Shown in pieces: positions 34,478-43,667 of a DNA stretch of 64,000 nt. A model generated the notes under the pieces. That model ran no database searches and was not told the origin of the DNA. It saw nothing but the letters and a program-made list of their open reading frames with translations. Each line of letters opens with the position of its first letter. Within the stretch, counting starts at the first letter, position 1. Source of the stretch: Sulfurospirillum sp. UCH001 (lineage in GTDB: Bacteria; Campylobacterota; Campylobacteria; Campylobacterales; Sulfurospirillaceae); contig NZ_AP014723.1 in NCBI RefSeq assembly GCF_001548035.1, positions 2,294,001-2,358,000 of the forward strand, given 5' to 3'. Position numbers and translations under genes: made by a program.

Positions 34478-34933
34478 TATAAATTTAACGATCTTTTATA
34501 TAAATGACGAATAAATTATAGTAAATCTTTAAACAATTTTCTTTTCATATTTATAATTTATTTTTTACTATTCCATCATACGCTCACTTATAAAAAGAGA
34601 TAATTTGTAATAAAAAATATATTTCATCACCGTTACGTAAAAATACAAAGTTGCACTCTTATGCTTCAAAACACCATTATTTAGCTACAAAATACACTAT
34701 TTTGACACAAAAAAGACATTTTTTGAACAGATTAAGTCGTAAAAGTACAATCATTTACCCTTAAAATCCATTTATATACGCCTTAGTCATCTGATATACT
34801 TTCTCAAAGTTTGGATTTCTTAAGGTTTATTATTTTTATTCGTTTTCGTCAGATGTCTCAAAATATGACGAAAAAACGATTTAAATTTTAATTTTATCCT
34901 TACAGCCTATATTTTTTCTAAAAAGGAGTTACT
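34478..34933 (+). other. Long AT-rich region and leader of the first AraC gene
   Basis: About 456 bp with no gene. It contains the first copy of the 31-bp element (34741-34771), a -10 TATACT (34795-34800), and in the resulting ~125-base leader an inverted repeat TCGTTTTCGTCA / TGACGAAAAAACGA (34840-34851 and 34866-34879). AAAAAGGAG precedes the AraC start. Confidence 0.6.
34741..34771 (+). promoter_or_regulatory. 31-bp activator box, copy A (first AraC gene)
   Basis: AAAAGTACAAT, 11 variable bases, then TAAAATCCAT, ending 23 bp before TATACT (34795-34800). Same internal spacing as copies B and C. Confidence 0.7.
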
Positions 34934-35746
34934 ATGACAGCACCTTTTTTCAATTTTGCCAAAGAGACGTTTAGAATCGAAAAAATAGATTTTTATCCGC
35001 CTATTCCAAGGCATAAACACTCTTGTTATGAGCTATTCTTTATCGTGGGTGGTTCAGGAACATTTTACATTGATTGTCAAAGCTACGATATTCAAAAAAA
35101 TACACTTTTTCTCGTCTCTCCAGAACGCATTCATGGATGGGAAAGAACCAATAATCTCCAAGCTTACTTGATAAAATTTGATCTTTCCATCTTTCCAGAG
35201 AACTCATTTAGTGATCACTTATCTATTTTCCATTTAGACACTGTTCAAGTTCAAGAAAATGAATTTAAATCGATAGAAAATATTTTAGCTACTCTTTTAG
35301 AAGAGTACCAAGCAACACGTTCTTTTAAAGAATGTACCATTTTAAATTTGCTCAATATTTTACTTATCTATGTAAAAAGAACACTTCCTGCTGTGCCATC
35401 ATCTTTTACAACTAACACACTTTTTCTACAACTTAATGATCTTATGCAACAAAATAATTATCAACTTACACCAACGACCTATTATGCGAAAAAATTAAAA
35501 ACGAGTGTCAAACTACTCAACCAAGCTATTAAAGAAATTACAGGACTTAACAGCAGTGATTACATTCGTTCAAAAACTATTTTAGAGGCGAAAAGACTTC
35601 TAAAATATGACACCATGACATGCAATGAAATTGCCGATCATCTCGGATTTGTAGACCCTGCATACTTTAGTCGATTCTTTAAAAGAGAAGTTGGAATTGC
35701 TGCGAAACACTTTCGAACTGCAACGGACGAAAAGTACAATTTTTAA
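34934..35746 (+). CDS. AraC-family transcriptional regulator (first)
   Basis: 270 residues. N-terminal cupin-type sensor domain (RHKHSCYELFFIVGGSGTF, VSPERIHGW) and C-terminal double helix-turn-helix (about 170-268: TTYYAKKLKTSVKLLNQAIKE, CNEIADHLGFVDPAYFSRFF, KREVGIAAKHFR). It is related to the second AraC gene at 38361. Its last codons (EKYNF stop) overlap copy B of the 31-bp element. It likely activates the porin-YceI and DoxX units and perhaps itself. Confidence 0.88.
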   Translation: MTAPFFNFAKETFRIEKIDFYPPIPRHKHSCYELFFIVGGSGTFYIDCQSYDIQKNTLFLVSPERIHGWERTNNLQAYLIKFDLSIFPENSFSDHLSIFHLDTVQVQENEFKSIENILATLLEEYQATRSFKECTILNLLNILLIYVKRTLPAVPSSFTTNTLFLQLNDLMQQNNYQLTPTTYYAKKLKTSVKLLNQAIKEITGLNSSDYIRSKTILEAKRLLKYDTMTCNEIADHLGFVDPAYFSRFFKREVGIAAKHFRTATDEKYNF

Positions 35747-35760
35747 TAATGAAAATCCAT
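35730..35760 (+). promoter_or_regulatory. 31-bp activator box, copy B (porin-like gene)
   Basis: AAAAGTACAAT, 10 variable bases, GAAAATCCAT; ends exactly 22 bp before TATAAT (35783-35788) and overlaps the end of the AraC coding sequence. Confidence 0.75.
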
Positions 35761-35820
35761 TTTAAAAAGAAAAACTAGTTGTTATAATTTATCTGAAATT
35801 TAACTTTCGGAGGAATTATT

Positions 35821-37095
35821 ATGAAAAAAATCGCTGTCGTACTTTTAAGTACCGTTGTTTGTGGCACTTTGGCGAGTGCTAAGATTGTTCAACAATTTGA
35901 ACCAGAAAAAGACACTTCTGCTTTTAAAGGTAAGCCTGAAGTAAGTTTTAACACGGATTTAACATTTAATTATCAAGGGTTAAGTCAACAATATGAACTT
36001 GGTAACCCAGGAACTACTAGAGAAGTGACTTTACAGCAGGGGTTGTCTTTACCACAAGCTAATTTTGATATTAATGCAAAAGTTATGAGTGGATTTAATG
36101 TTAAGTTAGAAACAATGCTTTCTTCTCACCACCACAATGAGACTTATGTTAAAGGTGGTTATGCAACGATTGATAATCTAGATTTTATTGCACCAGGTTT
36201 TGCATCTGATTTAATGCGCAATATGACCATTAAAGTTGGTGTTGACGATATTAACTTTGGTGATGACCAATACAGAAGAAGCGATAATGCAGATGTTATG
36301 AGAAATCCATTTGTTCATAATATGGGTGTTGAATCTTATATGCAAGCACCACATATTGAGATATATTATAGAATTCCAGCCATCAGTTCACTTGTCATGG
36401 TTGGTATCACTAATGGACAAGTAAATCCTGATGATGTTACAGAATCTCATACAGCAGGTAGCTCAAATCGTCCTGCAGGCTATGCTAAATTTGCATTTGA
36501 CAACCAACTTAATGATACTCTTCGTATAAGACTTTCTGAATCAGTTTATTATGTTAGTGGAACAAATAAAGGAAGCAGTTTATATAGTGGTGATAAAGCA
36601 GGTACTGTTTCAAGAAAAATTTTCGACTCTGATACATTTGCTAATGGTAAATGGACTAATAATGACAATGACTTTGGAGCATTGTGGAATGCTATGTCAG
36701 GATTTTCGGATTTAACTGTTTCAAAAACAAACTTTTTCACACGATTCTATGATACAGAATTTTATGCAATGTTAGAAATAGCTGATGGTGCTGATGCAAG
36801 TGATAAAGATATGAAAATGACCCATTATGCCCTTGACTTAGTTCAACGCTTCAATAATGATAAATTCTGGGTAGCAGGCCGTTATGAGAATGCTGTTGTT
36901 GAATATGCAGATGCAACTAATGATTTAGGTGATGCTGAAATGACTCAATGGCAGCTAGGTCTGGGTTGGTTTCTCTCTAAAAATGCAGTAGCAAAACTTG
37001 AATATATTGATCATAAGCGAGAGAAAAACTCAACATTTGTTGGTGGTAATGCAGAATTTAAAGGTTACATGATTTCAACAGCGCTTAGCTTCTAA
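35821..37095 (+). CDS. Outer-membrane beta-barrel-like protein
   Basis: 424 residues with a signal peptide (about 1-20, CGTLASA), then alternating short hydrophobic strands rich in Asn, Asp, Tyr and Gly, ending in an aromatic C-terminus (FKGYMISTALSF), as in outer-membrane porins. No named family recognised. Strong ribosome site (GGAGG). Eighteen bases later the YceI gene starts, so they form one unit under the copy B element. Confidence 0.7.
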   Translation: MKKIAVVLLSTVVCGTLASAKIVQQFEPEKDTSAFKGKPEVSFNTDLTFNYQGLSQQYELGNPGTTREVTLQQGLSLPQANFDINAKVMSGFNVKLETMLSSHHHNETYVKGGYATIDNLDFIAPGFASDLMRNMTIKVGVDDINFGDDQYRRSDNADVMRNPFVHNMGVESYMQAPHIEIYYRIPAISSLVMVGITNGQVNPDDVTESHTAGSSNRPAGYAKFAFDNQLNDTLRIRLSESVYYVSGTNKGSSLYSGDKAGTVSRKIFDSDTFANGKWTNNDNDFGALWNAMSGFSDLTVSKTNFFTRFYDTEFYAMLEIADGADASDKDMKMTHYALDLVQRFNNDKFWVAGRYENAVVEYADATNDLGDAEMTQWQLGLGWFLSKNAVAKLEYIDHKREKNSTFVGGNAEFKGYMISTALSF

Positions 37096-37112
37096 TTTGA
37101 TAAGGATTTAAT

Positions 37113-37595
37113 GTGAAAAAATTGATTTGTAGCCTTTTGCTTTTATCAGGCTTAGTTTACGCTGAAAATGTTGAAATTCATGGAACATCAACACTCCATG
37201 ATTGGAAAATGGTATCAAACGAAACACAAACTGTTTTCGAAAATGATGGTTCAAAAATTACAAAATTGAACGTTTCAGTTCAAATTAAAACACTTAAAAG
37301 TGGTGATTCAGGCTTAGATGAGAAAGCCTATGAGACACTTAAAATTGATAGAAACAATGTTATCACCTTCAAACTTCTTGAAGCAGATTTAGCAGCTGGA
37401 ACTATCAAGGGTGTTTTCAAAGTTCTTGATAAAGAGCGAACAGAAACTTTAAAACCAGAAGTACTAACACTTGATCGTGTTGCTGGTAATTTTAAAGTCA
37501 AAATGACTGAATTTGGACTTGAAGTTCCTTCTGTTATGTTTGGTGCTATCAAATCAGGTGATGAAGTAACTGTTAAGTACGACATCAAAAAATAA
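37113..37595 (+). CDS. YceI family periplasmic protein (first)
   Basis: 160 residues with a GTG start (AAGG seven bases upstream; the overlapping ATG is followed directly by TGA). Signal peptide (LICSLLLLSGLVYA) and YceI/lipocalin-like features: IHGTSTLHDWKM near the mature N-terminus and KVKMTEFGLEVPSVMFGAIKSGDEV at the end. YceI proteins bind isoprenoid or lipid-like ligands in the periplasm. Cotranscribed with the porin-like gene. Confidence 0.8.
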   Translation: MKKLICSLLLLSGLVYAENVEIHGTSTLHDWKMVSNETQTVFENDGSKITKLNVSVQIKTLKSGDSGLDEKAYETLKIDRNNVITFKLLEADLAAGTIKGVFKVLDKERTETLKPEVLTLDRVAGNFKVKMTEFGLEVPSVMFGAIKSGDEVTVKYDIKK

Positions 37596-37611
37596 GATCT
37601 TTTTACCCATG

Positions 37612-37647
37612 AAGAGAGGACAAGTGCCGCCAAGCTTCCTCTCTTCT
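37612..37647 (+). terminator. Terminator-like hairpin after the YceI gene
   Basis: GAAGAGAGG (37612-37620) and CCTCTCTTC (37639-37647), perfect 9-bp stem, 18-base loop. Confidence 0.65.
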
Positions 37648-37764
37648 ATCTCCTTGAATAATAGATAAAAGCATGGCTATATTTTAGTATATAGTCATGG
37701 TTTTGTCATATTATTATGATATAGTTTATCAATTTTATTGTACTATTTCATTCTTTATTGTCCT

Positions 37765-37795
37765 AAAAGTACAATAATTTGCGATGAAAATCTAT
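37765..37795 (+). promoter_or_regulatory. 31-bp activator box, copy C (DoxX gene)
   Basis: AAAAGTACAAT, 10 variable bases, GAAAATCTAT; ends exactly 22 bp before TATACT (37818-37823). The upstream ~100 bp hold further imperfect palindromes, e.g. ATGGCTATAT...ATATAGTCAT. Confidence 0.75.
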
Positions 37796-37853
37796 GGATA
37801 CATTGAGCAAAAGCCATTATACTTCGTACATGTAATACAACAAGGAGTATAGT

Positions 37854-38285
37854 GTGTTCTATGTAGAAAAAAAATTAGCCAAGTATATGACGGATGAAAG
37901 AGGTAAATTGCTGTTACGCTCTAGCATTGCTATCTTGATGCTTTTTCATGGATTTAAAAAATTAAATTATGGCATTAGTGGAGTCAAGGCATTGGTACTT
38001 CAAGCAGGGTTACCAGAGTTTTTAGCTTATGGCGTTTATATGGGAGAGCTTATTATCCCTTTTTTATTGATTGCTGGGCTTTTTACACGTTTCAGCGCAC
38101 TCATCCTAAGCTCAACAATGGGTGTTGCCATCTATCTTGGCTTTACCGATAAACTTTTAATGTTAGATGCTAAAACAGGAGGTCCGTTAATCGAACTTCC
38201 ATTACTCTACCTTTTAGTATCACTTAGTATTGTTTTTTTAGGTGCTGGAAAATACAGCTTAGATCGAAAATTACATCTTACATAA
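37854..38285 (+). CDS. DoxX family membrane protein
   Basis: 143 residues, GTG start after AAGGAG. Four membrane segments; SSIAILMLFHGFKKLNYGISG and GVYMGELIIPFLLIAGLFTRFSAL match the DoxX/DoxD-like family (terminal-oxidase-associated or quinone-linked membrane proteins). Single gene driven from the copy C element, followed by the second AraC gene. Confidence 0.82.
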   Translation: MFYVEKKLAKYMTDERGKLLLRSSIAILMLFHGFKKLNYGISGVKALVLQAGLPEFLAYGVYMGELIIPFLLIAGLFTRFSALILSSTMGVAIYLGFTDKLLMLDAKTGGPLIELPLLYLLVSLSIVFLGAGKYSLDRKLHLT

Positions 38286-38360: not shown

Positions 38361-39203
38361 ATGAACACTGAAGTTAAAATTTTTCATGATATGGACCCTA
38401 ATAGTCCTAATGAAGAAAAGAATTTCTTCATTGGAAAAATAAAACATTATGCCCCACCAACAGGCACACCACCGCCACTTCCACATAGGCATCCTTTTTA
38501 CGAAATTATTTTTGTTACACAGGGAGAAGGCATTATGAGAATCGACTTTGTCGATAGACCTATGCAAAAAGGTTCGTTATACTTGATGCTACCTTCCCAA
38601 ATCCATCTGCCTATTTATACTGGAGAGTTCCAAGGATTTTTGCTCCGTTTTGATCTCTCTATTTTTGCGGATAAAGCCTTTATGGAAAATCTCTCTATTT
38701 TCAATTTCGATTATCTTGCCGTCGAAGAACCTACATATAGTAATTTGGAAAATTTGCTTTTAAGTCTGCACGATGAATTCGTTACACAGCAAGCACTCAA
38801 ACAGTGCACGATCAACAATTTACTCAAACTCTTTTTAATCCAAGTTCAAAGATTATTGCCTGAGGTAGTGAATGAGACAGCGCAAACAACACTTTTTGGC
38901 GCCTTCAATACACTTTTAGAAGAAAATAATTATAAAATAAACACACCTATTTATTATGCTAAAAAACTAAAAATTTCTATTAAAACACTCAATCAGGTTG
39001 TCAAAGAGTATACGGGTATTCCTTGTGGTGAATATGTACGTTCTAAAACGATTATTGAAGCAAAAAGACTTTTATGCTATACCAATATGAACTCTAATGA
39101 AATTGCCACAACATTAGGATTTGAAGATGCCGCTTACTTTAGTCGCTTTTTTAAAAGAGAGACAGGATATTCACCTATTCATTACAGAAAACATTCCGCG
39201 TAA
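38361..39203 (+). CDS. AraC-family transcriptional regulator (second)
   Basis: 280 residues. N-terminal cupin region (PLPHRHPFYEIIFVTQGEG, LPSQIHLPIYTGEF) and C-terminal HTH pair (YYAKKLKISIKTLNQVVKE, SNEIATTLGFEDAAYFSRFF, KRETGYSPIHYR). Clearly paralogous to the first AraC protein, including the recognition helices, so both may bind the same element. Probably co-transcribed with doxX (75-bp gap, no terminator seen). Confidence 0.87.
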   Translation: MNTEVKIFHDMDPNSPNEEKNFFIGKIKHYAPPTGTPPPLPHRHPFYEIIFVTQGEGIMRIDFVDRPMQKGSLYLMLPSQIHLPIYTGEFQGFLLRFDLSIFADKAFMENLSIFNFDYLAVEEPTYSNLENLLLSLHDEFVTQQALKQCTINNLLKLFLIQVQRLLPEVVNETAQTTLFGAFNTLLEENNYKINTPIYYAKKLKISIKTLNQVVKEYTGIPCGEYVRSKTIIEAKRLLCYTNMNSNEIATTLGFEDAAYFSRFFKRETGYSPIHYRKHSA

Positions 39204-40802: not shown

Positions 40803-43667
40803 TTACGCTTTCTCTACGCGACATAAACCCGCGTTGAACTCTGAAATTTGGGTAATTGGGTCAAATCCGTAGTTAACAATCGTATTTGAACTCTCACCAA
40901 TGGTATACGGACGTGTTCCTTCTGGATAGTTTGCACTCAAATCTACACCTTGCATAATACCTGCAAAGTTGTACGGCATACAGATACGATCAGGAGTTAC
41001 GCTACGGTTGTAGTGTGCTCTAACCTTAATCTTTGTGCCTTGAGGTGCGTGAATCCACATCATGCCCTTATCTTCGATGCCATACTTGGATGCCAAGTCT
41101 GGGTGAATATTGGCAAACATCTCTGGTGTGATGCTTGAGAGGTATTTACTGGTTCGCTCTAACATACCAGCACCACTTAAGTTAACCAAACGCATACTGG
41201 TCATAACGGTTGGGAAATCTTTTGACCAATCTTGTTTTGTTTGCTCCGTGATGTAGCGCGTTGCAACCCTAAAGTTATTCGCTTGATCAGGCAATGCTGG
41301 GTATTTTTGTACCAAATCCCAACGTGGCGAGTGAATTGGCTCTCTATGAACAGGTACTGGATCTGGGAATTCCCAAACGATCGTACGCGCTCTTGCATTT
41401 CCGTAAACACACACACCGTATTCACGTGCATATTTTTGAATAAGTCCGCTAAAGTCCATCGCCCAGCTTGGTCCCATTTGCGCTTTCTCTTCTTCAGAGA
41501 GCGTAATGCCAAGAACTTTTTCAATATTTGCTTTAGTGAGTTGCGGGTAACCACCTTTGATTTTTTGACCTGGTAATGTTACAGTCTCATCGGCGATTTG
41601 GCTCACACCATTGTGCTCTAGTCCAAAACGATTTCTAAAGCCCATACCACCTTCATTGACTGGTTTGGAGACATCGTAAAGAACTGGTGAACCTGGATGT
41701 TTTTCATCCCAACATGGCCATGGAAGTCCATAGTATTCACCTTCCATCTCACCACGACCTTTAAGGGTTAATGGATCAAACAGATGCCAGTTTGCTTGAT
41801 GTTTACGTAAACGCTCTGGTGTCCAACCTGAAAGACCAATACTTTTTACCGTACGAGCGATTTCGCGAACTGCATCATCTGGCCATACAAAGTCATTTTT
41901 GTACTGAACAACGTTACCGCCTTCAACACGCATTTTCATGCCCTTAACGTACTCGTCATAGAAACCAAATTTTTTCGCGAATTCAAACATGACTTCATGA
42001 TCCGCTTTACTCTCATACAGTGGCTCAACAACTTGTGAACGCCATTGCGCTGAACGATTGGTCGCAGAGAGGGTTCCTTCACATTCAAACTGTGTAGCAA
42101 CAGGAAGAATGTAAACACCATCTTTTCTATCGGTAATAATCGCTGCTTCATTCACAAATGGCTCTGCAATAACCAGCATATCGAGTTTATCAATCGCTTC
42201 TTTGATTTTCACTTGCTGAGACATAGAGGTAATTCCCGTTCCTTGTACCCAAAGAACACGGATTGGTGCAGAAGAGGTTGTTTTTTCCTCTTGAAGAACA
42301 CCTTGCCACCATTTAGCAAGTGAGAAACCTTTAGCGTGCATCCATTTGCGTTCACCTTTATCATCAAGTTCAGGATGGAAACGATTTTGGAGATACTCTA
42401 AACTCACACCCCATGTTTTTGCATAGTATTGCCATGCCGCTTTATCCAAGCCGTAGTATCCAGGAAGTGAATCTGCAAGGTTTGCCATATCGGTAGCACC
42501 TTGAACGTTATCATGACCACGAATAATTTGACAACCGCCACCTGGTTTACCTGCATTACCTGTAACAAGAGCAAGGATTGGAAGCACACGTGTATTTGAA
42601 CTACCAACAGAGTGTTGTGTAATACCAAGTGACCATGCAATAGCAGCAGGTTTAGTTTTTGCATAAAGCTCAGCAACTTCAAGGATTTGAGCGACAGGAA
42701 CACCGCTAACATCTGAAGCAACTTCAGGTGTCCATTTCGCAGCTTCTGCTCTGATTTGATCCATTGCATAGGTTCTATGATCAATAAAATCTTTATCTTC
42801 CCAACCATTTTTGAAAATGACATGTAATAAGCCATATGCAAATGCAATATCTGTGCCCGGGCGTAGACGAACATAAATATCAGCTTTAGCAGCACTTCTA
42901 GTAAAGATAGGATCAACGACGATCAACTTCGCGCCTCTATCTTTGGCTTGTAAGAAATGTTTAAATCCAATTGGATTGGCTACTGCGGAGTTGGCTCCGA
43001 CCATCATAATTAACTTAGAATTTGCAACAACGTCACCAAAGTGATTTGTCATAGCACCATAACCCCATGTATTTGCCGCACCGGCAACAGAAGCGCTATG
43101 TCAGATTCTAGCTACGTGATCGATATTGTTTGTCCCCATAAAAGCGGCAAATTTTCTAAAGTAGTAAGACTGTTGATTATTGAATTTTGCTGAACCTAAC
43201 ATCATAAGTGTATCAGGACCATTCTCTTCTCTGATTTTTAACATTTTAGAAGAGATCTCATTAATCGCTTGCTCCCATGTTAAACGTTTCCATTGTCCGT
43301 TTTCTTTTTTCATTGGATATTTGATACGTTGTTTAGACTTGGTCAAATCGATTTGATCGGTTCCTTTACAACAATGGCTACCCTCACTGATCGGATGGTC
43401 ATGTGCTGGTTCTTGTCTTACCCATACACCGTTTTGCACTTCTGCAACAATACCACAACCTGCTGAACAAATCGAACAGATGGTTTTAACTTTTTTACTT
43501 CCTGGGAATGGGTTTTTTACCTCTTCCGCAGTCGCAGCTCTTATATTTTCTTCTTTTGCAAGAAGATTCCCTGCTCCAAAACTAGCACTTCCAAGAGCCG
43601 CCATTTTTAAAAATGAACGTCTTCCTATTTTGCTAGAGGAGAGTATTGGGTTTTCGCTTTTACTCAT
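40803..43667 (-). CDS. fdhA: Selenocysteine formate dehydrogenase catalytic subunit FdhA (copy 2)
   Basis: 954 residues with TGA at 43101-43103 read as selenocysteine 189 (ARI-U-HSA). Tat signal (GRRSFLKMAALGSASFG), 4Fe-4S motif CSICSAGCGIVAEV, GSHCCKGTDQID, bis-MGD motifs (TWGYGAMTNH, GANSAVANPIGF, GGGCQIIRGHDNVQGATDMA). Same overall length as copy 1 but clearly diverged, so this is an old paralogue or separately acquired isoenzyme, not a recent duplication. A bSECIS hairpin follows the UGA at the same 13-base distance. Confidence 0.96.
43073..43103 (-). promoter_or_regulatory. bSECIS element of fdhA copy 2
   Basis: UGA at 43101-43103, 13 bases, then TTGCC-GGTGC-GGCAA (43087 to 43073 on the minus strand). 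Relative to copy 1 one C-G pair has become U-A by two synonymous changes. Confidence 0.85.

Follow-up and report, generated by a model that had tools for sequence, protein, structure and literature searches.

The closest described counterpart of the locus reported here is the arabinose system of Escherichia coli, in which paired AraC operators at araI recruit RNA polymerase (PMC4760080). In the araI region, as taken from genome records, the distance from I1 to I2 at pBAD is 21 bp, and the end of I2 lies 20 bp from the -10 box. The exact 17-bp half-sites in this region are those which we take to be I1 and I2. Within the Campylobacterota, PsrR of Wolinella succinogenes is described as an AraC family protein required for the synthesis of polysulfide reductase (PMC6682613). 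By that description it resembles the regulators considered below in family and phylum, but differs from them in its targets.

The DNA analyzed (64,000 nucleotides of Sulfurospirillum sp. UCH001, hereafter the window) contains a gene cluster encoded entirely on the forward strand in the order crcB (33746), a DUF190 gene (34132), araC1 (34934–35746), a gene for a porin-like outer-membrane protein (35821–37095), yceI (37113–37595), doxX (37854–38285) and araC2 (38361–39203), beyond which a formate dehydrogenase operon lies on the opposite strand. The yceI-like gene encodes a periplasmic protein with the Pfam domain YceI, the doxX-like gene a membrane protein with the domain DoxX, and araC2 is a paralog of araC1 (approximately 46–47% identical). 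The porin-like protein has a signal peptide and a C-terminal Phe, no Pfam match and a weak, sub-cut-off match to the LbtU porin. Its structure model (pLDDT 39), in which beta strands are confined to the C-terminal half, was of too low confidence to be used.

The exact pattern AAAAGTACAAT-N11-AAAATCYAT is present three times, always on the forward strand: at 34741–34771 (site A, AAAAGTACAATCATTTACCCTTAAAATCCAT) before araC1, at 35730–35760 (site B, AAAAGTACAATTTTTAATAATGAAAATCCAT) before the porin gene and at 37765–37795 (site C, AAAAGTACAATAATTTGCGATGAAAATCTAT) before doxX. The initial annotation had reported three 31-bp copies at these positions, ahead of an AraC gene, a porin-YceI unit and a doxX unit, and both the coordinates and the length were borne out on re-checking, as was the partial location of copy B within the coding end of the AraC gene, since it starts in the last codons of araC1 and includes the stop. 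Only the variable spacer, given there as 10–11 bases, had to be corrected to 11 bp in all three copies. The suggested search of the whole genome (2.61 Mb, single contig) returned these three exact copies, all at the cluster, against an expectation of about 1e-4 per whole genome calculated for both strands from the base composition, and no further copy with one or two mismatches. At three mismatches, the genome gave eight matches vs. two for the reversed control. When a weight matrix was applied to fetched loci, the off-locus three-mismatch matches scored no more than 7, apart from a single one at 16 (L008), as opposed to 31.9–51.3 for the 23 distinct training sites. Off-locus near matches (2–3 mismatches) were thus not accepted as regulon members, those examined lying mostly in reading frames and having low matrix scores. 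Among the 199 genomes searched, no exact copy was present outside the AraC1-bearing Sulfurospirillum clusters; other genera had scattered matches with 1–2 mismatches, as expected from such an A+T-rich pattern. Moreover, second YceI paralogs and doxX genes located elsewhere had no site in the loci examined.

Comparison of the aligned columns of the element with themselves gave the best self-match at an offset of 21 in each of A, B and C (column permutation, p = 0.011 over offsets 12–29 and p = 0.0006 at 21 alone). The half-site approximates C-N-T-N-AAARTMCAWT, so the element amounts to about AAARTMCAWT written twice, and in site A the tandem half-sites fall at about 34742–34751 and 34763–34772, with a period of 21. 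The repeat is imperfect, with two clearly mismatched columns, and is partly driven by A-tracts. Reading the element as an inverted repeat produced weak scan matches and was abandoned. A pair of tandem half-sites describes the element better than a single 31-bp word does, and a direct repeat with half-sites about 21 bp apart is what characterizes AraC-type class II activator operators.

Further elements were seen upstream of the main sites. A degenerate copy at 34667–34697 on the forward strand, 74 bp before site A, is a candidate accessory operator with a weak matrix score in this genome (9.8), and several relatives have a similar upstream copy at a distance of 74–75 bp. Upstream of site C, an inverted half-site AATAGTACAAT on the reverse strand (37737–37747), another accessory candidate, falls short of the reporting score here; the same offset of -26 at site C exceeded the score used in the other three of the four genomes concerned. 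At site A, inverted half-sites 26–27 bp upstream of the left half-site were detected in several genomes. With moderate confidence, these accessory elements could serve looping or additional binding.

The promoters downstream of the three sites have good -10 boxes and poor -35 regions. The -10 boxes, all on the forward strand, are TATACT at 34795–34800 for araC1, TATAAT at 35783–35788 for porin-yceI and TATACT at 37818–37823 for doxX, which begin 23, 22 and 22 bp after sites A, B and C, respectively, in agreement with the 22 or 23 bp noted previously. The promoters at A (with TGA preceding the box) and B are of the extended -10 type (TGN). At A and C the -35-like hexamer starts on the final base of the site, and at B it starts one base after the site, so that the promoter-proximal half-site adjoins the -35 position, again as in class II activator operators. 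In a table of 29 sites from different genomes, the distance to the -10 box was 22 bp in 13 of 13 B sites and 4 of 4 C sites, while TATACT stood at 23 bp in 9 of 12 A sites. The exceptions among the A sites included genomes G021 and G022, with no clean TATACT at the usual distance; the A site of G014 has a spacer shorter by 1 bp with the -10 distance kept, and that of G023 is degenerate and weak. The sigma70 promoters of Campylobacter jejuni are generally without a -35 box (PMC3847290), and a poor -35 region alone is therefore no sign of activation. The evidence for activation is the fixed placement of the sites, not the weakness of the -35.

Orthologs of AraC1 (58–100% identity) were found in 14 of 24 Sulfurospirillum genomes, and the sites recur at the cluster in the same 14 genomes, at the same places and with the same spacing. 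Site C precedes doxX in the four genomes with doxX in the cluster, and no site precedes araC2 in genomes without a local doxX. Genome G004 has crcB, DUF190, doxX and the formate dehydrogenase genes, in this order, at the same locus and is devoid of an AraC1 ortholog, of a close yceI ortholog and of a site before doxX. The sites, then, follow AraC1 and its targets. Beyond the genus, the only further matches among 398 genomes searched in the order were AraC1 relatives of at most 35% identity. An extension of the regulon to other genera was rejected, as no comparable site was found near these relatives apart from one weak match (9.0, L084).

Both AraC1 and AraC2 exceed the gathering scores of the Pfam families AraC_binding and of HTH_18 and HTH_AraC, indicating an N-terminal cupin sensor and dimerization domain and a C-terminal AraC-type helix-turn-helix. 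In Foldseek, the N-terminal domain of the AraC1 structure model, which has a modest confidence (pLDDT 66), matches the regulatory domains of AraC (2ARC) and RhaR (5U93). The AraC1 alignment shows no variation at the HxH-x3-E positions and a downstream His of the cupin site. Such HxH-x3-E positions are common in AraC-type sensors, and their invariance does not prove metal binding. HpaA (4-hydroxyphenylacetate) and RhaS/RhaR are among the best matches of the two proteins to NCBIfam equivalogs; since all scores are far below the curated cut-offs (97 vs. 275 bits for HpaA), neither protein is an equivalog of HpaA, AraC, RhaS or RhaR.

Each 31-bp element is most probably an operator of AraC1 (we put the probability at roughly 0.8), through which the regulator would activate its own gene (positive autoregulation), porin-yceI and doxX-araC2. 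In this mechanism, an AraC1 dimer, probably with a ligand held in its cupin domain, would sit across the two half-sites from one face of the DNA and, like AraC at pBAD, would recruit RNA polymerase. The second half-site ends at -35, and the promoter there combines a good -10 with a poor -35. The activator-site geometry and the local regulon proposed in the initial annotation are both supported, by the constancy of spacing across species, the end of the sites at -35, the 21-bp direct repeat typical of AraC family operators, the presence of the sites in 14 of 14 genomes having AraC1 and the missing site before doxX in the genome without AraC1. With E. coli AraC/araBAD, the system shares two direct-repeat half-sites at 21 bp, a downstream half-site ending about 20–23 bp before the -10, a TCCAT block that is also present in I1, a regulator with cupin and AraC-type helix-turn-helix domains encoded beside its targets, and a possible distal operator. 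In contrast, AraC1 is only about 22% identical to AraC, the half-site sequence is different, araC1 points in the same direction as its targets, and these targets are a porin, YceI and DoxX instead of sugar catabolism. In the literature searched, no paper combined Sulfurospirillum with YceI, or YceI with DoxX, AraC and a porin. The proposed local control circuit is newly described, although its kind is well known and the general picture of AraC regulation is unchanged. It provides an operator definition for an AraC-type regulator of the Campylobacterota (half-site, period and promoter spacing), names a target set of porin, YceI, DoxX and a second regulator, and offers a pattern usable for predicting regulation in new Sulfurospirillum genomes.

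Of the two paralogs, AraC2 might also bind the sites, alongside AraC1 or in its place, since the pair is generally found together and differs very little in the second recognition helix (YFSRFFKRE). Binding by AraC2, or by both proteins in competition or as a mixed dimer, is possible, if somewhat doubtful. The cupin motif HxH-x3-E is also common to both, and most genomes with AraC1 have araC2 in the cluster as well. In the window, araC2 is probably transcribed together with doxX from the promoter at site C and is thus probably itself a target. Against AraC2 speaks the position of the sites: A is always before araC1, and araC2 has no site of its own when doxX is missing from the cluster. Moreover, genome G005, which has no araC2, keeps exact copies of A and B, albeit this argument is weak because the loss of araC2 may be recent. 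Since the sites track AraC1 and the local doxX, we infer from these sequence patterns that AraC1 is the better candidate.

If AraC1 is the binder, it might still act in the opposite sense, keeping the promoters silent until it is released by an inducer. Without arabinose, AraC itself forms a repressing loop (PMC4760080), and a loop would be compatible with both the degenerate copy 74–75 bp upstream of A and the inverted half-sites that several genomes have 26 bp upstream of A and C. The main sites, however, end at -35, the usual place of an activator, and do not cover the -10 or the start site, which makes operators devoted to repression quite unlikely; activation and loop repression can coexist. 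Another explanation would be that copy B is kept only as the code for the C-terminus of AraC1, A and C being chance resemblances or recent duplications. Indeed, in the nearer genomes B encodes the conserved AraC1 tail EKYNF. In four genomes (G014, G021, G022 and G023), however, the araC1 stop codon precedes site B or coincides with its start, while the site and its -10 are conserved; maintenance outside the reading frame points to selection on the DNA and not on the protein tail. In addition, A and C lie in non-coding DNA and have been conserved together with their -10 spacing, the spacers and flanks differ among the three copies, and the number of chance matches expected per genome is far too small, so this explanation has practically nothing left to recommend it. 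Activation by AraC1 remains our preferred reading.

A more ambitious version of this reading is conceivable, in which AraC1 would drive its own expression along with that of YceI and a variable outer-membrane porin and of DoxX and the second AraC, in a previously undescribed envelope-remodeling circuit confined to part of Sulfurospirillum among the genomes searched, with araC1 feeding araC2 in a two-regulator cascade and a conserved hairpin of the porin-yceI transcript yielding a 3'UTR small RNA. Taken as a whole, we consider it rather unlikely. The hairpin follows yceI at 37611–37646 and has an invariant loop, CCGCCAAGC, replaced by CCGCTAAGC in G014. In a hand alignment, all nine stem pairs were kept in the 10 genomes tabulated, covarying with 2–4 pair types each. 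It is followed by TCTCCTTGAA and then by a second hairpin resembling a terminator. No credible Rfam family was found for the yceI 3' hairpin, which is a candidate for a small RNA of the 3'UTR or for a protein-binding element. Of 19 places in the genome with the loop motif CCGCYAAGC, only one other has a similar fold (L137, where a histidine kinase gene ends), and this was judged to be chance.

The porin of the window (35821–37095) is about 57–63% identical to those of most relatives (L069–L081) whose YceI is 88–96% identical, and 77–81% identical to those of G021 and G023, where YceI is at 78–79%. This mismatch suggests that porin alleles have been exchanged between lineages. The insertion sequence that interrupts the porin gene of G005 (L071, 4768–6732) carries a transposase-like gene as well as an IstB-like ATPase, and the cluster there has no yceI, doxX or araC2, with sites A and B intact and exact. 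At the other end of the cluster, several genomes (loci L070, L073, L074 and L077) have palindromes TTACATGTAA, sometimes in tandem, 3' of araC2 and close to the formate dehydrogenase operon. The gene for the formate dehydrogenase alpha subunit is split by an in-frame TGA at 43101–43103 on the reverse strand (DHVARI-TGA-HSASVAG), which is probably a selenocysteine codon.
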